Both the position numbers and the translations under genes were made by a program. A stretch of 40,716 nucleotides of DNA from Armatimonadota bacterium. GTDB taxonomy: Bacteria > Armatimonadota > UBA5829. This document shows positions 3,434 to 39,290 of the stretch, one piece after another. The notes beneath the pieces were generated by a model. That model was not told the DNA's origin. It was given only the letters and a program-made list of their open reading frames with translations, and ran no database searches. The DNA is taken from contig JARYME010000018.1 in assembly GCA_029907315.1 (NCBI GenBank), forward strand, positions 1 to 40,716, read 5' to 3'. Each line of letters begins with the position of its first letter. Within the stretch, counting starts at the first letter, position 1.

Positions 3434-3532
3434 CCAGGCGCCGAGCTAAGATAGACAGGTCCACTGATAGATCCATATGTAGTCAACGATCATCACGTGG
3501 ACTTACGTGTCTGTTCCTGGAGAGCATTCCTC

Positions 3533-4333
3533 GTGGTTAGAACTCGATTAGTCTCTTGTATTACAGTCGCTCTGCTATTTGGAGTGCTCGGCTCTACACA
3601 AGCTTCGGAGGACAGTTCTCGAACTGTCCCTGAGGCTGCCGCCTTCGTGTTGGCTCCCGCAGGGATAGCAGCAATAGTGGCGGCAGAACGCCGGCGTCGA
3701 CGGTTGCGCGACGTAAAGCGGGGCGTTGGCAAGGCGTACTTTGTCGTCAAGAGACTGGTCGACCTGATTCTCTCCAGTATTGCACTGCTGATTTTCTCAC
3801 CGCTGTTTGCGCTTATAGCTCTGGCGATCAGACTGGATAGCCCGGGCTGTATCGTTTACAGGCGCAGGGTCGTCGGTATGGACGGCAGAGAGTTCGATAT
3901 GTATAAGTTTCGATCAATGGTAGAGAATGCAGAACAGATCTTGCAGTCCGACGAAAAGCTCAGACGCGAGTATTACATCAACTGCAAACTGAAACGCGAC
4001 CCGCGGGTCACCAGAGTCGGCAAGTTCCTGCGCGTTACAAGTCTGGATGAACTGCCTCAACTAATTAATGTGTTCCTAGGACATATGACGTTCGTCGGCC
4101 CGCGTCCAATTGCGCCGGACGAGATCGAAAAATACGGTCCGGCATTTGAAAGATTCAAAACAGTCAAGCCGGGGATTACAGGGCTCTGGCAAATATGCGG
4201 GCGCAGCGACTTGCCTTATGAGAAACGTGTCGAGATGGACATGATGTACATCGACCGGCGCAGCATTCTACTGGACCTGTGGATCATAGTTTCCACGGTA
4301 CCTGCAGTTCTCTTGAAACGCGGAGCCCGATAG
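3533..4333 (+). CDS. Sugar-phosphate (polyprenyl glycosylphosphotransferase) transferase with an embedded PEP-CTERM-like segment
   Basis: Residues from about 66 onward are a bacterial sugar transferase of the WbaP/PglC/WcaJ type: a membrane segment (VKRLVDLILSSIALLIFSPL), then FDMYKFRSM, LDELPQL, FVGPRP and PGITGLWQICGRS. These enzymes move a phospho-sugar from a nucleotide sugar to undecaprenyl phosphate at the inner membrane, starting exopolysaccharide or glycan synthesis. GTG 3533 is chosen because GGAGAG lies 8 bases upstream; GTG 3497 in the same frame has no ribosome site. The 266-residue protein starts with a signal-peptide-like stretch (residues 1-24). Residues 32-57 then read Val-Pro-Glu, a hydrophobic run and five arginines, which is the plan and length of the PEP-CTERM tails elsewhere in this window. 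Such a tail inside an enzyme is odd. The gene converges on the next with only 4 bases between stops. Confidence 0.93.
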   Translation: MVRTRLVSCITVALLFGVLGSTQASEDSSRTVPEAAAFVLAPAGIAAIVAAERRRRRLRDVKRGVGKAYFVVKRLVDLILSSIALLIFSPLFALIALAIRLDSPGCIVYRRRVVGMDGREFDMYKFRSMVENAEQILQSDEKLRREYYINCKLKRDPRVTRVGKFLRVTSLDELPQLINVFLGHMTFVGPRPIAPDEIEKYGPAFERFKTVKPGITGLWQICGRSDLPYEKRVEMDMMYIDRRSILLDLWIIVSTVPAVLLKRGAR

Positions 4334-6616: not shown

Positions 6617-7606
6617 TTAATGCCGGGCGTCATCGTTTCCAAAATCAGTATCCCAACATTCGTCGTCGGAACCGTCCGCTTCTTCGATACTCCTGTTGCG
6701 TCTTGCTAGGTATGCCGCTATCGCCAAAGCAGCCATCAGTACAGACACGAATGCAGTTGCCAGCCGAATCCACCGCAGACCACTGTAACGCTTGGAGATC
6801 TCAGCCAACCACTCCTGCTCAAAAGCAGAAAGATTGCGTCCAGTAACGGCAACCATTGCCTTGTCCATCGAGTAAGTCTCTTGCAGATGTAATATAAGCA
6901 TCCTAGGTGCCGCGCGACCGAAGCGCGCAACCATGAATCTCACTGCCGACGCCGATTCAGCGTAGGCCAGGCCGGTTCGCGACTTCGGAAACGATTTGCG
7001 CAATCTGAAAAGAGGAATAACCGAACCCTCTGCGGCAGCAGTAGCAATTATCTCGTCGTCGTAACCGCTCAGCTCTCGCGATTCATAACCCGCCAATCCC
7101 TCGTGCATCCAAAGGGGTAGTTCCGTGGCAAGCGGTCCCAGCAACCGAAATACAACCGCGTGGGTTATCTCGTGGGCAAGTATGCGTTCGGGTAAATCGA
7201 ACACTCCGCTCGCGTCGACAGCTATTTCGTCGGTGCCAAGTGAGGCTGTCCCAACGGTCAGCTTGTCGATTTCCAAACCGCCTGATTCTACGAAATCCGC
7301 ATGGCTTCTGAAGACGTACAGCGTGAACGGCCGGTTACCCGTGGGCTCATACCCCAAATCTTTCGCTATGCGCCTCAGTTCATCTTCGGCTGTTTGTGCA
7401 AGGAGACGCGCAAGGAATGGATCTTCTGGTTCATACCTAACAACGAAGTTCCGGGTACGCATAAATGACGATAGTTTGCCCAGTGCGTTCCTATGAGCCT
7501 GTTTCGCGTCTCCGGGTTGAAGGACAAGAACCAGAGAGACAACTGCTGCCAGCACAGCCAGAGGCTTCTTGCACTTGTAGAGCTGCTTGACATTCGCCGT
7601 TGCCAT
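6617..7606 (-). CDS. Membrane-anchored MA-type (gluzincin) zinc metallopeptidase
   Basis: This 329-residue protein has a membrane or signal segment at about residues 15-32 and a second transmembrane segment near 282-303, followed by an acidic cytoplasmic tail. The catalytic centre is HEITH at residues 145-149, with the third ligand probably Glu169 in WMHEGLA. This is the layout of the peptidase MA-like superfamily. The catalytic domain lies between the two membrane segments and should face the periplasm. The substrate is unknown. ATG 7606 is 18 bases after the stop of the phosphatase gene, so the two form an operon; no clear ribosome site precedes it. Confidence 0.87.
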   Translation of the reverse strand: MATANVKQLYKCKKPLAVLAAVVSLVLVLQPGDAKQAHRNALGKLSSFMRTRNFVVRYEPEDPFLARLLAQTAEDELRRIAKDLGYEPTGNRPFTLYVFRSHADFVESGGLEIDKLTVGTASLGTDEIAVDASGVFDLPERILAHEITHAVVFRLLGPLATELPLWMHEGLAGYESRELSGYDDEIIATAAAEGSVIPLFRLRKSFPKSRTGLAYAESASAVRFMVARFGRAAPRMLILHLQETYSMDKAMVAVTGRNLSAFEQEWLAEISKRYSGLRWIRLATAFVSVLMAALAIAAYLARRNRSIEEADGSDDECWDTDFGNDDARH

Positions 7607-10170: not shown

Positions 10171-12168
10171 CTACTTTAGAAGTTCAAGGGCCTTCTTAGC
10201 GATATCCTCCGCGGTTAGACCGAACAACTTCATAAGCTCCCAGGGTTGCCCGGATTCTCCAAACGTGTCCTGAACGCCTATCTGAGCTATTTTTAAAGGT
10301 TTAGTGTGGTCAGTGCGGGTTGCAGCAATGCCTGCAACGATGTTTCCGAAGCCGCCAACCTGGTGTTCCTCAGCGGTTATTATCGTGCCAATCTCATTTG
10401 CGGCGGCAAGTATTGCTGCCTTGTCAATCGGTTTCACGGTGTGAGCATTTATGACCCTGGTTTCAATGTCGTGTTCGCGCTTAAGTATCCATGCTGCTCG
10501 CATCGCTTCCGGGACCATAGGTCCGCAAGCGATAATCGCGATGTCCTCGTTCTCATTGGTGTAATCTGTGGACAGCACCTGCTCGAATGCATCAATGAAC
10601 CTTGGAGCTTCGCCGCGGAATCTGATAACGTTCGCGACGCCGAACTTATACGGCGTCTCGGGAGTTGTGACTACAGGTGTCGCTTCACGTGCGAATCTGA
10701 TATAGGCAGGTCCGACTACTTCCAACACGCAAGCCTTTGTTGCCTTCTCAGTCTCGACCGAGTCACAAGGCACCTCGACATGCATATTAGGCAGTATGCT
10801 CATAAGGGCAATCTCTTCAAGAGCCTGATGGGTAGCTCCGTCGGGTCCCACACTTATGCCTCCGTGGGCGCCTGCAATCTTAACATTCAGATTGCCGTAG
10901 CAGATGGTTGTTCTAATCTGGTCCCAAGGCCGGCCGGCTGCAAATACACCGTAGGTGCCAGTGATGGGGATCTTGCCGTTGAGAGCCAGTCCCGCAGCAA
11001 CCTGCATCATGTTTTGCTCGGCAATTCCAACAGAAAATACTCGGTTGAGCCTTTCGGGGTGACCGTCTTCAAAGTCCGTGATGCAGATCGACTTCGATAT
11101 ATCGGCGTGAAGTGTGCAGATGCGCTCATCGTCGCCGATCTTCTTTAGTGCTCGGCCGAAACCCATCCTGGTGGGGTCCATATCAACTTTCATATTGGGC
11201 TTTTCGTTCCACCAATAGTTGTCCAGGAACTTGGGGTGCCGACTATCAATGTCCTTTGATACGGCTTCGGCGTAAACTTTGGCTTTTTCAAGCAGCTCAT
11301 CGACTTTCTCAGCCGTCATAGTGGGGCATCCGATGTCCGCCAGAGCCTTGTCCAACTCCTCTCGGGTCTTGGTGGCCACGCCGTGCCATCCAGCCTGGTT
11401 TTCCATGAAGGAAACGCCTTTGCCTTTGACAGTATGCGCTATTATGACCGACGGCTTGCCCTTTGTATTCCTTGCTTCGTCGAACGCATTGAGGATCTGC
11501 TCCATATTGTGGCCGTCTATTTCAATCACATGCCAGCCGAACGCCCGGTATTTGTCAGCGATGGGTTCAATGTTCATCACGTCGCTGACCCAGCCGTCGA
11601 TCTGAAGTCGGTTGAGGTCCACAATACCGCAGAGGTTGTCCAGTTTATAGTGTCCAGCGCTCATAGCAGCTTCCCATATGCTGCCTTCTTGCTGTTCGCC
11701 GTCGCCCATTACAACGTAGATGCGTGCAGGGCACTTGTCTAGTCGGCAAGCCAGAGCGATTCCAACACCAACGCCTAGACCCTGTCCCAAAGACCCGGTA
11801 GATACTTCGATCCCTGCAAGCTTCAAGCAGTGGGGATGACCCTGGAAAGGACTTCCGCACTTGCGAAGGGTTACAACATCATCCAGGTCGTAGTAACCGG
11901 CTTTCGCAAGGCCTACATACAGAGCCGGAGCTTTGTGACCTGCCGAGAAAATAACACGGTCGCGGCATTCCCAGCGAGGATCAATCGGTTTGATGTTGAC
12001 TTCGTTAAGAAAAAGCGCAGCCGTGATATCCATAATAGAGAGCGACCCGCCCGGATGACCGGTTCCAGCTGCGTGTATCGCCACCAGTGCATAAGCGCGC
12101 ATCTCTCGGGCAGCATCCTCGAGTTCGCGAACAGATAGTCTTCTTCGAGTTGACTCAGCTACCGACAA
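10171..12168 (-). CDS. tkt: Transketolase, both halves in one chain
   Basis: This 665-residue enzyme of the pentose phosphate pathway moves two-carbon ketol units between sugar phosphates using thiamine diphosphate. The N-terminal part has HPGG at residues 38-41, the coenzyme motif beginning GDGEQQEGS at 155 and ending in DLNR, and HTVKGKG. The pyrimidine-binding half has GIAEQNM and the AHGGISVGPDGATHQ region. The C-terminal half ends with a typical EEHQVGGFG segment. Many relatives of this size class are split into two genes; here the halves are fused. ATG 12168 is preceded by GGAGG. The promoter is well defined, with a palindrome at the start of transcription that looks like a LacI/CcpA-type operator. 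The gene has its own terminator and appears to be transcribed alone. Confidence 0.97.
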   Translation of the reverse strand: MSVAESTRRRLSVRELEDAAREMRAYALVAIHAAGTGHPGGSLSIMDITAALFLNEVNIKPIDPRWECRDRVIFSAGHKAPALYVGLAKAGYYDLDDVVTLRKCGSPFQGHPHCLKLAGIEVSTGSLGQGLGVGVGIALACRLDKCPARIYVVMGDGEQQEGSIWEAAMSAGHYKLDNLCGIVDLNRLQIDGWVSDVMNIEPIADKYRAFGWHVIEIDGHNMEQILNAFDEARNTKGKPSVIIAHTVKGKGVSFMENQAGWHGVATKTREELDKALADIGCPTMTAEKVDELLEKAKVYAEAVSKDIDSRHPKFLDNYWWNEKPNMKVDMDPTRMGFGRALKKIGDDERICTLHADISKSICITDFEDGHPERLNRVFSVGIAEQNMMQVAAGLALNGKIPITGTYGVFAAGRPWDQIRTTICYGNLNVKIAGAHGGISVGPDGATHQALEEIALMSILPNMHVEVPCDSVETEKATKACVLEVVGPAYIRFAREATPVVTTPETPYKFGVANVIRFRGEAPRFIDAFEQVLSTDYTNENEDIAIIACGPMVPEAMRAAWILKREHDIETRVINAHTVKPIDKAAILAAANEIGTIITAEEHQVGGFGNIVAGIAATRTDHTKPLKIAQIGVQDTFGESGQPWELMKLFGLTAEDIAKKALELLK

Positions 12169-12200
12169 TTGTAACCTCCTGCCTACGCATTAAGAGAGCT

Positions 12201-12214
12201 TGGAAACGGTTTCA
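12201..12214 (-). promoter_or_regulatory. cre-like operator at the transketolase transcription start
   Basis: TGGAAACGGTTTCA contains the perfect palindrome GAAAC-G-GTTTC (12203-12213) and fits the catabolite-responsive pattern TGNAANCGNTNNCA at every fixed position. It begins just downstream of the expected start of transcription. The binding protein would be a LacI/GalR-family member; whether it is the one in this window is unknown. Confidence 0.55.
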
Positions 12215-12224
12215 CACGAGGCAT

Positions 12225-12254
12225 AGTATACGAAAGTCTACCTTGCTCGGTCAA
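12225..12254 (-). promoter_or_regulatory. Transketolase promoter
   Basis: On the minus strand TTGACC (12254-12249) and TATACT (12230-12225) are 18 bases apart, giving a start near 12218 and a leader of about 50 bases. Confidence 0.65.
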
Positions 12255-12347: not shown

Positions 12348-13151
12348 TCACGGCTTCGGCGGCGCCAGCCGGAAGTACGGGTCCACTGCCCCTGACAAAG
12401 ATTTCACAAGTATGCCTACGTAGGGATTAGGGGTGTGAGGTGCTCCTGGCGGTTCGGGTGGAGGCAGCTCAGCGCTTGTAACATGACCGTCGAACCAGCC
12501 TACCACACTCTTACCGCTGTGCCAGCCGGGAGGCCATACGTAGTCCGGTCGACAAACGCTGGTAGACGGTGGGTAGCACATCATCGATCCACAACCCATT
12601 GTGAAAAGTCCCCAGGCCGAATTTGAACCGCTGGAATCGAATCGCCAGCTTTCCAGCAGCCGAATGGTTTTTGTGGGCTTTACAACCTCGCTGAGACTGT
12701 GGTAGCCGGGGTTGCTGGGGTTGTTAGGGTCACCACCAAGATAGTAATAGTTGTAGCCATAGGTGCGAACGAGAGTTCCAGAGATCGGGTCCTGGGGATA
12801 TGTGCGGTTTCTGGACGGGTATCTACTGGGACAAACGAAGACGCCACCCATATCAAAGTCCCCAGTTGTGGAAGCCTTTTTGAGCTGTTTGAGATAGGGG
12901 TCCACTTTGGCACACCACAACACGGACATATTAGTCCAGCCACCCATCGAGCCCGGGAGTATTTTTGAATAATCGTTCTCGTAAAGAATACACGCCTGAA
13001 GAAGAGTCTTGACGTTGTTTTGACAGACTGATTGTCGCCCAGATTCGCGAACTCGCAAAAACACGGGGAAAAGTATAGCGGCAAGAATTGCAATAATTGC
13101 GATTACGACCAGCAGCTCAATAAGCGTAAATCCTTTACTCCCCCTCTTCAT
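12348..13151 (-). CDS. Prepilin-type N-terminal cleavage/methylation protein (type II pseudopilin-like, H-X9-DG family)
   Basis: Residues 7-27 are a classic type IV prepilin signal: GFTLIELL followed by [11 protein letters not shown]. Cleavage would fall after the Gly and methylation on the Phe. The globular part of this 267-residue protein has paired cysteines. It carries His, nine residues, then Asp-Gly (HSGKSVVGWFDG) near residue 217, the H-X9-DG motif of the large pseudopilin-like families in Planctomycetes and Armatimonadetes. A proline-rich tail follows. Export probably uses a type II/IV pilus assembly apparatus, which is not in the window. ATG 13151 follows GGGGGTGATAACAA. Two relatives occur at 22639 and 38580. 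The exact role of these proteins is unknown. Confidence 0.9.
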   Translation of the reverse strand: MKRGSKGFTLIELLVVIAIIAILAAILFPVFLRVRESGRQSVCQNNVKTLLQACILYENDYSKILPGSMGGWTNMSVLWCAKVDPYLKQLKKASTTGDFDMGGVFVCPSRYPSRNRTYPQDPISGTLVRTYGYNYYYLGGDPNNPSNPGYHSLSEVVKPTKTIRLLESWRFDSSGSNSAWGLFTMGCGSMMCYPPSTSVCRPDYVWPPGWHSGKSVVGWFDGHVTSAELPPPEPPGAPHTPNPYVGILVKSLSGAVDPYFRLAPPKP

Positions 13152-13260: not shown

Positions 13261-14328
13261 CTAGGTGTATAGCATAACCTTCACGGCACCGGTTTCGGAT
13301 TTGTTTTCGGCTGTTCGGAAAGCTTCAATCGCATTACTAAGATGGAACCGATGTGTGATAACTGGGGCGGGTTTGATCTTGCAGCCTTGAAGAAGCGACA
13401 ATCCTTCATAGTATTCTGAAAACCGAAAATTGCAGGAGGACACCAGGGCTCGTTCCCCTGCTAGTGAAATAGTGTGCAGCTTTTGAAGCTCGTCTGTCAC
13501 GGTCATGATAACGTACGTTCCGCCTCTCGCAAGAAGTGGCAAATAGTCTCCTAAGCTGGCACCGACCGTGTCGATGATCGCTCGGCACCCGTACCCACCC
13601 GATAATCCCATCACGGACTCGCTCAGTTCGCGCAAGTCCGGGGTGAATGCCGCGTCTGCCCCCATTCTGGTCGCGACTTCGAGAACCGGTTTGCACAGAT
13701 CAACCAGCACCACTTGGGCATTCGCAATGGCTTTTGCTACCTGAATAACGAGTTGACCAACAGCCCCTCCGCCGACCACAAGGATGGTGTCGCCGTCCTG
13801 GATATTTGTCTTCCGCACGGCGTGTACTGCCACACCGAGCGGGTCCAAAAGCGCACCGGCTTCGTTGGAAACCTGGTCCGGTAGCGGCACCAACCACTTG
13901 TGGTCTACAGGTACATATTCAGCCATGCCGCCGTAGTAGTAATCCAAATCTTCCCAGCCGGCGCCGTGTCCGAGGTGCTGAGTTCTTTCGCACAAGTGTT
14001 CTTCGCCGCGGCGGCAGTGCACGCAAACCCCGCAGGTTCCAAATGCGAGAACGGCGACGCGCTTCCCGATCAGGTTGTCTGGTACGCCTGGACCGATTTC
14101 AGCTACGATTCCGGTTATCTCGTGGCCGAGTATTATGTTCTTAGGATTGGCAATATGCCGGCCGAGAGTTTGTTTGGCCCAAGGGTTGTCGCCTCGGAAA
14201 TACCGAATGTCGCTCCCGCAGATCCCGCAGTGGGTGACTCGAACCAGTGCCCACCCAGGCTTCAGTATAGGCAGCGGTACATCCAGGACCGCGAGGTCGT
14301 TTGCTGACCTCAGGACAACAGCTTTCAC
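13261..14328 (-). CDS. Zinc-dependent medium-chain alcohol/polyol dehydrogenase
   Basis: This 355-residue member of the threonine/sorbitol dehydrogenase branch has the catalytic zinc Cys37 (CGICGSD) and His69-Glu70 (GHE). The structural zinc site is Cys99, 102, 105 and 113, and the Rossmann motif VVGGGAVGQ lies near 185. It oxidises a secondary alcohol or sugar alcohol with NAD(P)+; the substrate is not determined. The start is GTG 14328, which overlaps the stop of htpX by one base (TAGTG), so translation is probably coupled. The operon with a membrane protease looks incidental. Confidence 0.93.
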   Translation of the reverse strand: MKAVVLRSANDLAVLDVPLPILKPGWALVRVTHCGICGSDIRYFRGDNPWAKQTLGRHIANPKNIILGHEITGIVAEIGPGVPDNLIGKRVAVLAFGTCGVCVHCRRGEEHLCERTQHLGHGAGWEDLDYYYGGMAEYVPVDHKWLVPLPDQVSNEAGALLDPLGVAVHAVRKTNIQDGDTILVVGGGAVGQLVIQVAKAIANAQVVLVDLCKPVLEVATRMGADAAFTPDLRELSESVMGLSGGYGCRAIIDTVGASLGDYLPLLARGGTYVIMTVTDELQKLHTISLAGERALVSSCNFRFSEYYEGLSLLQGCKIKPAPVITHRFHLSNAIEAFRTAENKSETGAVKVMLYT

Positions 14329-22638: not shown

Positions 22639-23538
22639 ATGAAACAGAACATTCGTAAGCAAGTGGGCGGCTTTACACTGATCGAGCTACTGGTTGTAAT
22701 AGCCATTATCGCGATTTTGGCCGCGATTCTGTTCCCCGTTTTCGTCCGTGCCAGAGAAAGCGCTGTTTTGACGTCGTGCATAGCAAACATGCGACAGGTG
22801 GGAGCAGCTATTCACCGCTACCAATCCGATTATGACGATTGCTTCCCTTGGGCACCATGGTTTTCCGGCCCGATACACACTCCGCAGTATCTGCTTCCCT
22901 ACCCAGTGGGGCAGGGGGTAGGAGGACAAACCGGTCAGAGCCCTGATCCTGGGCAGCCCAAAGCCCAAGAGCGACCGCTTTACGCGTATACAAAGAACTT
23001 CAATATGTGGCGCTGTCCGAGCGAACCCAAGATCAACCCAAGCATGAATGTTGACGCGTCACTTCGGAAAACCGACTTCGAGTGGTGGGGGACAAGCTAT
23101 CCTATGAATGCAGCCTGGATGGTCAACGGCATGGTGGTAGCTACGCTTGGGGGGTATAACGAAGCTACCGGTTCCGGCCTGAAGGTTAGACCGGGAAGAA
23201 AAGCATCCACCGTGAAATCTACACGGCGCATGATCTTGCTGGGCGACCGGTGTATGCATGCGTATTTCGCAGATCCGCATACCATATGGGGTGCCTATCC
23301 GGGAGAAAGTGAGCAGGAGGCGGCCAAGCACAGATTTGCCAACCACGACAAGGACGCGCCGAGATCCCCGGTCGTCTTTTGCGACGGGCACGCCAAGTAC
23401 GTTCTGATGACCCCTGACCACGAGGAAGTTGTGGGCGGCAGAACAGTTAAAACGCTCGGGCTGTGGGACAAGGATTGGGCGCTTATGGAGCGCGGTTGGG
23501 TTCCTGGTATGCCCGATGTGGGATCGCCGCTACTCTGA
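22639..23538 (+). CDS. Prepilin-type N-terminal cleavage/methylation protein
   Basis: This 299-residue protein has the prepilin signal GFTLIELL at residues 11-18, then [17 protein letters not shown]. The globular domain carries Cys pairs and ends in an [16 protein letters not shown] segment comparable to the H-X9-DG motif of the 12348 protein, with a longer spacer. ATG 22639 follows AGAAAGGGAGTG. The protein is probably exported by a type II/IV pilus apparatus and sits at the edge of the exported-protein block. It has its own promoter and is followed by the promoter of a PEP-CTERM gene. Confidence 0.9.
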
Positions 23539-23705: not shown

Positions 23706-24368
23706 ATGAAGAAAGCCTACTTTATTATGGCGGCGCTGCTCGCAATCAGCGTAGCAGCAACAGCCGACCCTGGTCTGGTCGTGAACGGCGATTGGGCTAC
23801 GGGCGACGAAACCGGATGGACTCGATGGTGGGCCCCGTGGGGAGCTGCAAACTGGGCGGTAACATTTAATGGTCCGTATGCTCCAGAAGGAACGGCCTGG
23901 CTCAACCAGGGTCAGTCCGGAAGCTTCGGTTGGTACCAGGTCATTCCTTGCGCTGCCGGCACGATTTGTTTTATCAGCGGCCAGTGGGCAGGCGACATAG
24001 ACGGACTAGGCTGGGCCGAGGTTATGTTCTGGACCACCAACGATCCCAACGAGAACCACGCTAACAGGGCAGATGTAGGCAATCCGGCCGACATCGCTTT
24101 CAAGAAGGACTCGTGGGGGATGAACCCGCCGACCGCGTGGGACTGGGAACCAATTATAAAATCGCCGCATCCCAACGGCAATTACGGAATGGTTGTCAGC
24201 CAGGGCTACGTGGTCGTCGCACTCAAAGTGGGTTCAGTGTCCGGGAATCCCGTGTGGGCTTCTTGGGATAACCTCTGCCTGTGCTGTGTTCCGGAACCGG
24301 GCAGCATGTTGGCTCTTGGAACCGGGCTCATCGGCCTTGCGGGATTTGCAGTCCGCCGCCGAAGGTAA
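23706..24368 (+). CDS. PEP-CTERM sorting domain surface protein
   Basis: This 220-residue protein has a signal peptide (residues 1-20), then a Trp-rich beta domain resembling the 'NGDFE' jelly-roll modules of the neighbours (VVNGDWATGDETGW at its start). Its last 26 residues are the PEP-CTERM tail: Val-Pro-Glu-Pro-Gly, a hydrophobic helix and four arginines. In exosortase-containing bacteria this tail is cleaved and the protein is anchored or released with polysaccharide. ATG 23706 is preceded by GGAGGTGA with 8 bases between; GTG 23694 overlaps that site. A strong hairpin separates it from the 24493 gene. A similar arrangement exists on the minus strand at 32413. Confidence 0.92.
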   Translation: MKKAYFIMAALLAISVAATADPGLVVNGDWATGDETGWTRWWAPWGAANWAVTFNGPYAPEGTAWLNQGQSGSFGWYQVIPCAAGTICFISGQWAGDIDGLGWAEVMFWTTNDPNENHANRADVGNPADIAFKKDSWGMNPPTAWDWEPIIKSPHPNGNYGMVVSQGYVVVALKVGSVSGNPVWASWDNLCLCCVPEPGSMLALGTGLIGLAGFAVRRRR

Positions 24369-32412: not shown

Positions 32413-33003
32413 TTATCTCCGACGCCGGAGTGCCAAGCCGGCAAGACTGACGAGACCAGTCCCGAGAGCGAGCAAGCTACCAGGCTCGGGCACAACCTGA
32501 AGGTTATCTGCTGCCGTCCAGCTCCACTCCGCGAAGTGAACGATGAAGTTCACCTTCAGCTCGTTCGCACCGATTCCAGTCACCGGAACGCTGAACGAAA
32601 CCCACGGAAACGCGTCCGCCCAGCGGTTCGGGTCTGCATCTCGGGCTACAGACGCGACCACAGTGCCGTTCCAAAGCACTTGAGTCGCAACGTTCCTCCA
32701 AGCGTCTCCGGAATGGGCTGCCGCGTAAATCTCGCCCGTCAACAGGCCGTCTCCAGTGAAGTTGACGATCTGCGTGATACTGCCAAGCGGTCCGCCCCAG
32801 TCGCCGCCCCAGGAACTGATAACGGCCGCAAACGGACCACCCGAGGGTGAAGCGGGCATCCCGAAGTCACCGGGGTTCTTGATGCCCACGCCTCCGCTTG
32901 CGATCCAGCCGTTCAGTCCGTCGTCGAACGTTCCGTTGACCACGCCGGCTTGCGCGCTTGCGGCCAGCACCAGCAGCGCAAGTGATACGAGGACTCTACG
33001 CAT
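32413..33003 (-). CDS. PEP-CTERM sorting domain surface protein
   Basis: This 196-residue protein has a signal peptide (1-19), then a jelly-roll-like domain (GVVNGTFDDGLNGW). The PEP-CTERM tail is the last 26 residues: Val-Pro-Glu-Pro-Gly, a hydrophobic helix and four arginines. The tail closely matches that of the protein at 23706 over its whole length. ATG 33003 is preceded by GGAGG with 8 bases between. A strong promoter lies upstream. The product is probably processed by an exosortase encoded elsewhere in the genome. Confidence 0.92.
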   Translation of the reverse strand: MRRVLVSLALLVLAASAQAGVVNGTFDDGLNGWIASGGVGIKNPGDFGMPASPSGGPFAAVISSWGGDWGGPLGSITQIVNFTGDGLLTGEIYAAAHSGDAWRNVATQVLWNGTVVASVARDADPNRWADAFPWVSFSVPVTGIGANELKVNFIVHFAEWSWTAADNLQVVPEPGSLLALGTGLVSLAGLALRRRR

Positions 33004-38498: not shown

Positions 38499-38527
38499 TT
38501 GACCTTTGCTGTCAAATTGCCCATAAT
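38499..38527 (+). promoter_or_regulatory. Promoter of the third prepilin-like gene
   Basis: TTGACC (38499-38504) and CATAAT (38522-38527) are 17 bases apart, about 50 bases before GTG 38580. Confidence 0.6.
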
Positions 38528-38579
38528 ACGAATGAAGGGGAATGGATTGGGTAATCCAGATAGAAGCGGGGTGATAAAT

Positions 38580-39290
38580 GTGAACAGAATGCGCAGGGGT
38601 TTTACCCTCATCGAGCTTTTGGTTGTGATTGCAATCATAGCAATACTTGCCGCTCTCCTGTTCCCTGTGTATTCTTCGACCAAGGCAAAAGCTCTTCAGA
38701 GCTCGTGTTCGTCGAACATAAAGCAGATTGTAATGGCGCTAATTCGCTACGCAGACGACTGGAACGGCACGCTCCCTGGCCTTAACGCATTTGGTGACTT
38801 AGTCGATGCCAGCAATACCAAACCAAACAGAGGGCCTCTCTGGCAATACGTGAAGTCCCAAGAAGTATTCCAGTGCCCGGCACAGATATGGAAGCGAAAT
38901 CCCACCAATTCTCTCGCGCCGCATAAGTTTAATTATACCTACACAATGAACGGTTACATGACGATTGCCGAAAGAGACCGCGGGCTAGCAGACTATGTTG
39001 GAGAAAAGGTGAGTAAGTCCAGAAACCCGTCTCAAACTATCCTTTTGGTCGACGAGAACTGCGACGAGACAAAGAATGAAGGACAGTACGTAGTAAACGA
39101 TGCGCTGTTCATATGGGAAGACCGCACAGGCGATCGGCATCCCGGCTCAGAACACGTAACCACGATCAACGGCGCACGCTATCTTTGCAGCGGCAGTGCG
39201 CCGGTGGGATATCTTGACGGTCATAACAGCGTCGTCCCTGGACTCATAAAGTGGCAAAGCCCTGAGGGGAAAGCCCTTTTTTACAAATAA
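38580..39290 (+). CDS. Prepilin-type N-terminal cleavage/methylation protein
   Basis: This 236-residue protein has the prepilin signal GFTLIELL at residues 6-13, then [17 protein letters not shown]. It has Cys residues at the usual places and a late VGYLDGHNS segment comparable to the DG motif of its relatives. GTG 38580 is chosen because GGGGTGAT lies just upstream and it places the basic residues directly before the signal. The ATG at 38499 would lie inside the promoter. It is a paralogue of the proteins at 12348 and 22639 with a shorter globular domain. Confidence 0.9.

Follow-up and report, generated by a model that had tools for sequence, protein, structure and literature searches.

A variant sorting segment placed ahead of the catalytic domain of a phosphoglycosyl transferase in Armatimonadota hints at a link between exosortases and glycan initiation

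Analysis of a 40,716-nucleotide stretch of DNA from an Armatimonadota bacterium (contig JARYME010000018.1, termed the window; genome G000) revealed a plus-strand gene at 3497-4333 encoding a putative small monotopic phosphoglycosyl transferase (PGT) with an N-terminal signal peptide and an internal sorting segment. The open reading frame of 278 amino acids extends from a GTG at 3497 to a stop codon ending at 4333, with the GTG at 3533 as an alternative start. Its Bac_transf catalytic domain (PF02397; 3749-4312, plus strand, residues 85-272) scored 209 bits against a cut-off of 27 bits, and the Asp-Glu pair at 4046-4051 (plus strand) within TSLDELPQ, presumably the catalytic dyad of monotopic PGTs, is invariant and aligns with SLDELPQ of WbaP. 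Judged by domain score and dyad, the product can be classed as a monotopic PGT, and the solved structures closest to its PGT domain were those of WbaP (1.7e-46) and PglC (7e-28). An AlphaFold2 model with 7 sequences gave a pLDDT of 43 and a pTM of 0.23, values too low for it to be informative, and it was set aside.

The region ahead of the catalytic domain, entirely on the plus strand, is made up of distinct parts. A signal-peptide-like stretch, VVRTRLVSCITVALLFGVLGSTQA (3533-3604, residues 13-36), was judged by eye from the sequence; by the same inspection the signal peptides of the orthologues are textbook-like, for example MSRLTLAAVIFLLAAGSVSA in G010. It is followed by a short periplasmic linker of seven residues, SEDSSRT (3605-3625), which is the least conserved part of the protein at 12% mean pairwise identity. 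The subsequent stretch, 3626-3703, translates in frame as VPEAAAFVLAPAGIAAIVAAERRRRR, corresponding to residues 44-69 counted from GTG 3497, or 32-57 from GTG 3533 as numbered in the original prediction. It opens with a V-P-E signature (3626-3634) that is invariant in all nine family orthologues and reads I-P-E in G240, continues as the hydrophobic helix AAAFVLAPAGIAAIVAA (3635-3685) with an A..LAP.G pattern conserved in the family alignment (A49, L52, A53, P54, G56 and A59 being invariant), and closes with the cluster ERRRRR (3686-3703), predicted to lie on the cytoplasmic side and basic in all orthologues. As 209 residues including the PGT domain come after VPEAAAFVLAPAGIAAIVAAERRRRR, the segment is not C-terminal. 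Elsewhere in the window, three type IV prepilin-like proteins have the same type of N-terminal stretch (12348-13151, minus; 22639-23538, plus; 38499-39290, plus), and a Peptidase-MA-like secreted protein with a C-terminal helix is encoded at 6617-7606 (minus); the homologue of the latter in G241 (L286) has RRRRRR after the helix, then an acidic tail, and no PE motif.

The original prediction of a sorting-like segment at 3626-3703 before a sugar transferase is confirmed, the segment being both in frame and conserved. Its description as a V-P-E start, a hydrophobic stretch and five arginines, with the same 26-residue length as true PEP-CTERM tails, was likewise borne out by translation and by TIGR02595. 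The two tails cited for comparison are real and canonical, each of 26 residues and over the TIGR02595 cut-off: VPEPGSMLALGTGLIGLAGFAVRRRR lies at 24288-24365 on the plus strand (within 24288-24368; 28.1 bits) and VPEPGSLLALGTGLVSLAGLALRRRR at 32416-32493 on the minus strand (within 32413-32493; 29.0 bits). The original prediction had given 24291-24368 and 32413-32493, with the minus strand left unstated. A total of 30 TIGR02595 tails exceed the cut-off in G000.

The identity as PEP-CTERM proper did not hold. The PEP-CTERM layout is present, with motif, helix and basic cluster spanning 26 residues behind a signal peptide recognised by inspection. The window protein gave no match to the curated PEP-CTERM models, and the segment orthologues reached at most 7.7 bits against a cut-off of 16 for TIGR02595 and at most 8.9 against 20.7 for PF07589. 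With a profile drawn from 63 PEP tails of the family itself, the window segment scored 0.6-0.8 bits, like random internal helices. The third motif residue follows P-E-[A/V/T] in all ten carriers and not Pro-Glu-Pro. Canonical membership was therefore rejected, on scores below the model cut-offs and under 1 bit in the local profile. Two outcomes had been named beforehand as speaking against a sorting signal: a failure to match PEP-CTERM profiles, which did occur, and homologues bearing the segment in genomes without an exosortase, which did not. The window sequence taken alone would prove nothing.

Rather than with canonical tails, the segment groups by its sequence with a variant tail class, PE[A/V/T/I], which also ends true C-terminally tagged proteins of the carrier genomes. 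The class was defined in this analysis by a gap-free register of P-E, L at position 9 and G at position 13, together with reciprocal profile matching; the internal segments display both features, with the window copy alone scoring low (5.4 bits). G000 itself has C-terminal tails of this class at C99:33395-33466 (IPEASALWLAPLGL.., in full IPEASALWLAPLGLTVVGRLRKRLGAG) and at C122:10963-11037 and C122:11727-11801 (IPEASTLLLAFTG.. and IPETTTLMMALMG.., in full IPEASTLLLAFTGIGSIAGFRRLRKG and IPETTTLMMALMGLGSVAGLRRLRKS), which align without gaps with the internal segments over P-E, L9 and G13; the LAP.G pattern is common to the window segment and the C99 tail. Proteins encoded beside the transferase genes end in VPEASTVMLGFVGL.., VPEVPTMLLGSIGL.. 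and VPEIPAVALGSIGL... The alanine in place of proline had been seen as a reason for doubt; as C-terminal tails of the same genomes carry that variant residue, it is no defect.

Profile searches agreed in both directions. In a set of 2,831 open reading frames, enriched in tagged proteins by the retrieval of many loci with tail profiles, the profile of the ten PGT segments recovered the transferases and then 21 matches that were all C-terminal tails. Conversely, the main internal matches of a profile built from ten C-terminal variant tails were the transferase segments. When isolated segments were scored with this variant-tail profile, nine of the ten PGT segments exceeded the best other internal stretch (9.7 bits), and the window copy, the weakest of the ten at 5.4 bits, fell below it. 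Across the same 2,831 frames (708,000 amino acids), the internal tail pattern was found only in these PGTs and in one 142-residue frame resembling a shadow frame.

Two tail classes stand side by side in G000, namely V/I-PEP-[GSA].. and PE[A/T]-[ST]... Variant tails occur with a clade-A exosortase and are absent from G005, which has only a clade-B enzyme (long, EpsI-fused-like); this distribution suggests that there are two exosortases which differ in the tails they prefer. G001 (67% complete, clade B alone seen) also has variant-like tails, and G012, in which clade A alone was seen, nevertheless has 19 canonical-type matches. A further PE-W tail variant, IPEWPALAMAASGFGLIGFVKRRF and IPEWPALLMAAPGLGLAGLLRRRF, is found near the clade-A exosortase in the exosortase loci of G003 and G004 (proteins at L098 10908-11792 and near L097 8104-8862). 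Secreted uncharacterised proteins with variant tails (VPEAST, VPEIP, VPEVP) are encoded at L082 10908-11525 (minus), 11673-12230 (minus) and 13504-14304 (plus) and at L084 10745-11518; their genes adjoin the transferase in G010-G014, and they are cargo candidates for this system.

The transferase and its layout recur in 8 other genomes of the window's family (f1). V-P-E is invariant in the nine family proteins, as are A, L-A-P and G within the helix, and mean identity by region ranged from 100% in VPE through 74% in the basic cluster, 72% in the catalytic domain and 63% in the helix down to 28% in the signal peptide and 12% in the linker. The resemblance to a sorting tail goes beyond chance, as V-P-E is held constant across nine orthologues with only 12-28% identity in signal peptide and linker. 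In four ortholog pairs, dN of the segment against that of the catalytic domain was 0.038 vs 0.040, 0.055 vs 0.050, 0.074 vs 0.072 and 0.068 vs 0.147, so that the segment evolves at about the pace of the catalytic domain, close to or below its dN; the signal peptide and linker evolve about 4-8 times faster than the segment in these pairs.

A profile search of 291 genomes of the phylum found ten proteins spanning the segment (129-149 bits), followed by ordinary transferases at 57 bits. In the transferase tree the ten carriers group as a single clade with a support of 100, and the segment-less enzyme of G006 is its sister (99). No separate tiny tail frame was found upstream of the G006 PGT, and an unfused ancestor of that arrangement in G006 was accordingly rejected. 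Scanning of 84,980 species genomes with a single degenerate pattern returned six loci covering the whole segment, three from Armatimonadetes and three matching the family members G002, G012 and G013; within the limits of this pattern, the search for fusions outside Armatimonadota gave none.

The tenth carrier, G240, belongs to another family of the same class, and in it a signal peptide and an exported domain of about 190 residues precede the transferase's segment. This domain is homologous to a free-standing protein of 255 residues in G013 (37-42% identity, 2e-35). The G013 protein ends ...HILRPDTVEQPSVPEASSMLLGALGLMPVLGMSIRKWRK followed by a stop codon; the G240 protein reads ...HILRPDTHSQPNPSPNIPEATAMVLGPSGLAMIVALEKHRRR and runs on into the transferase. 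The G013 stop falls where G240 continues, which places the internal segment exactly where a C-terminal sorting tail stands, and we regard this alignment-based comparison as the strongest and clearest evidence of all. As G240 branches within the short forms in the PGT tree, its passenger was probably gained later. The surface-protein family is seen either free-standing with a variant tail (L262; G013:C105:100234-100311) or fused to the transferase (L139, G240). The passenger domain had no match in Pfam or NCBIfam, and no homologues of it were found on plasmids.

Every carrier genome encodes an exosortase, and the Cys, Asn, Arg and His columns of the exosortases were intact in all 35 sequences examined. 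G000 has two exosortases, one of which would be cognate to the segment. Within f1 the segment occurs in 9 of the 10 genomes with a clade-A exosortase and in none of the 5 without (hypergeometric ~0.002, for genomes that are related and in some cases incomplete). Exosortase and segment are both missing from G007-G009, which also have practically no canonical tails. The segment appears dispensable in G006, which has a clade-A exosortase and an orthologous PGT without it. The exosortase of G240 belongs to another clade; strict co-dependence on one exosortase clade holds within f1 and is broken by G240, and was rejected.

Gene neighbourhoods bring the same components together to varying extents. 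In G013, an uninterrupted run of genes encodes an exosortase-EpsI, two glycosyltransferases (the one scanned being of group 1, GT1), a PMT-like protein, two variant-tail proteins, the PGT and a third protein with a variant tail; exosortase, transferase and all three tailed proteins fall within about 9 kb. The fusion gene of G240 sits between PEP-CTERM genes and an SLBB polysaccharide-export gene. Exosortase and transferase are 24-27 kb apart on one contig in G011 and G014, and a variant-tail gene directly follows the transferase in G010-G014. In G003, G004 and the segment-less G006 the transferase adjoins a chain-length/kinase-like gene, and in G000 and G002 the PGT lies away from the exosortase. 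The segment is thus conserved, equivalent to true C-terminal tails and associated with exosortases, and these observations, along with the reciprocal profile matches and the linkage to exosortase loci, uphold the sorting-signal-like reading of the original prediction.

Taken together, the first ~50-70 residues of the PGT may constitute a complete miniature exosortase-type substrate, comprising a Sec signal peptide, a short periplasmic stub and a variant sorting signal, after which the predicted cytoplasmic PGT continues with no intervening stop codon. According to the PEP-CTERM model (PMC1569441) and established rules of topology, Sec would export the N-terminus and signal peptidase may trim it. 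VPE would then be positioned at the periplasmic face of the membrane, the short helix would span it, and the arginines and transferase would remain cytoplasmic. The exosortase would bind the VPE segment as it does with a cargo protein, and through this tether the PGT, which charges the polyprenyl carrier with its first sugar-phosphate, would be held next to the exosortase, allowing glycans to be initiated where tagged proteins are cut and conjugated. A cut at VPE would leave the PGT anchored by its helix, and hence activity could be retained with docking as well as with processing. In nine of the ten carriers the exported stub is only ~5-10 residues long, with no obvious cargo; display of cargo is therefore an unlikely purpose, and docking, or processing that leaves an anchored PGT, is the better reading. 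We assign a probability of about 0.6 to the transferase being presented to the exosortase like cargo, thereby tethering glycan initiation at the sorting site, with recognition, cleavage and coupling as inferred steps.

The short stub also bears on whether the fusion could be a polyprotein, in which the exosortase would cut at VPE and part an exported peptide or protein from the PGT, giving two products or serving as a maturation or regulatory step. The exported part of G240, a ~190-residue domain homologous to a standalone tagged surface protein, suits this explanation, and internal sorting tags have been argued to be functional in mid-protein, as with the internal MYXO-CTERM of MXAN_5598 (PMC11980579). 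However, the nine f1 orthologues export a nearly random short stub (12% identity) that makes little sense as a product, and the long passenger of G240, nested among the short forms, looks derived; a polyprotein is consequently considered unlikely.

Another explanation starts from a sorting tail that lost its stop codon and now acts as the second transmembrane helix of a hairpin, a plain membrane anchor with no exosortase role. The segment would serve well as an ordinary anchor, the canonical models miss it and the G006 PGT manages without it. Yet a mere anchor needs no invariant V-P-E at the periplasmic edge, fixed while its neighbours drift, nor would it be expected to share the LAP.G pattern with a C-terminal tail of the same genome or to be confined to genomes with an exosortase, and we hold it to be improbable. 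That an ordinary transmembrane helix resembles a sorting tail by mere chance is highly improbable and largely refuted by the positional equivalence of G240 and G013 to a real tail, for even though the window copy alone scores like random helices in the PEP and variant profiles, the motif is kept in ten orthologues and nine of them surpass every other internal segment in the variant-tail profile.

By the current view, an exosortase cleaves its tagged proteins and attaches the freed end to a compound that awaits identification (PMC7468200). If the transferase is indeed presented to the exosortase like cargo, a tethered glycan-initiating enzyme makes a polyprenyl-linked sugar a candidate for the joined compound, by way of speculation. 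A bolder proposal, which we consider rather doubtful, is that tagged proteins, once cut, are joined by the exosortase through their new C-terminus to a polyprenyl-diphosphate-linked sugar or glycan started by the PGT, which would then be a working subunit of the sorting machinery; were this true, the fusion would reveal what kind of chemical compound exosortase substrates are joined to.

The link between exosortases and polysaccharide synthesis has so far been drawn mainly from neighbouring genes and from the phenotypes of mutants. That tag and PGT are naturally fused is evidence of the Rosetta-stone type that sorting and lipid-linked glycan synthesis converge on a single membrane site; it hints at a direct connection between protein display and the building of the sugar coat, and names both a partner for the exosortase and a class of compounds as candidate acceptor. 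The fusion further indicates that a sorting tail located internally, ahead of a cytoplasmic enzyme, can remain functional or is at any rate maintained by strong selection, and searches limited to C-termini will thus miss such substrates. No paper joining an exosortase with a phosphoglycosyl transferase was found in the open-access library searched, which in itself does not prove absence; both parts of the protein are of known kinds, an established enzyme and a modified form of an established sorting signal, and no description of their joint architecture was found.

Several known systems come close to parts of this architecture. Canonical PEP-CTERM regions (TIGR02595, PF07589) resemble the segment in having a signal peptide, a PE-motif, a helix of ~14 residues, a basic cluster and a length of 26 residues, and an exosortase and many canonical tails are also present in the segment's genome. 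The segment differs in having A/V/T for the third P, in scoring below the cut-offs and in being internal before a cytoplasmic enzyme; PEP-CTERM regions lie near the C-terminus virtually without exception (Haft 2006, PMC1569441). The tiny PExPT-CTERM proteins of TIGR04200 (targ_of_XrtJ, ~57 residues) consist of little beyond a signal peptide and a sorting tail, like the N-terminal modules of the PGTs, which match the model over nearly its whole length (E = 9e-4 in G010 and 0.012 in G004), much of it generic signal peptide. These proteins are, however, free-standing, and the N-terminal modules all fall below the 40-bit cut-off, with the best at 18.9 bits and the window copy not among the matches. 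No match in the 291 phylum genomes reached 40 bits and the weak phylum-wide matches were mostly signal-peptide-only or tail-only, so membership of TIGR04200 was rejected.

One adhesin-barrel protein of myxobacteria, MXAN_5598, is reported to contain an internal MYXO-CTERM (PMC11980579); like the PGT it has a C-terminal-type tag in mid-protein, and a gene fusion was proposed as its origin. The tag and protease are different, and what lies downstream there is an outer-membrane barrel and OmpA domains, not a cytoplasmic glycan-initiating enzyme. Among transferases, WbaP and PglC (small monotopic PGTs, PF02397) have a complete catalytic domain with the Asp-Glu dyad, as does the window protein; WbaP-type enzymes have a long N-terminal module and PglC-type enzymes none, whereas the window PGT has a secreted-type signal peptide and a sorting segment. 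The XrtA/PEP-CTERM-system sugar transferase EpsB_2 (TIGR03013) is a PGT tied to an exosortase EPS locus, as here, although the window protein scores 162 against a cut-off of 393 bits, with only the C-terminal catalytic part aligned. The association in TIGR03013 is one of gene neighbourhood and involves no fusion to a sorting segment.
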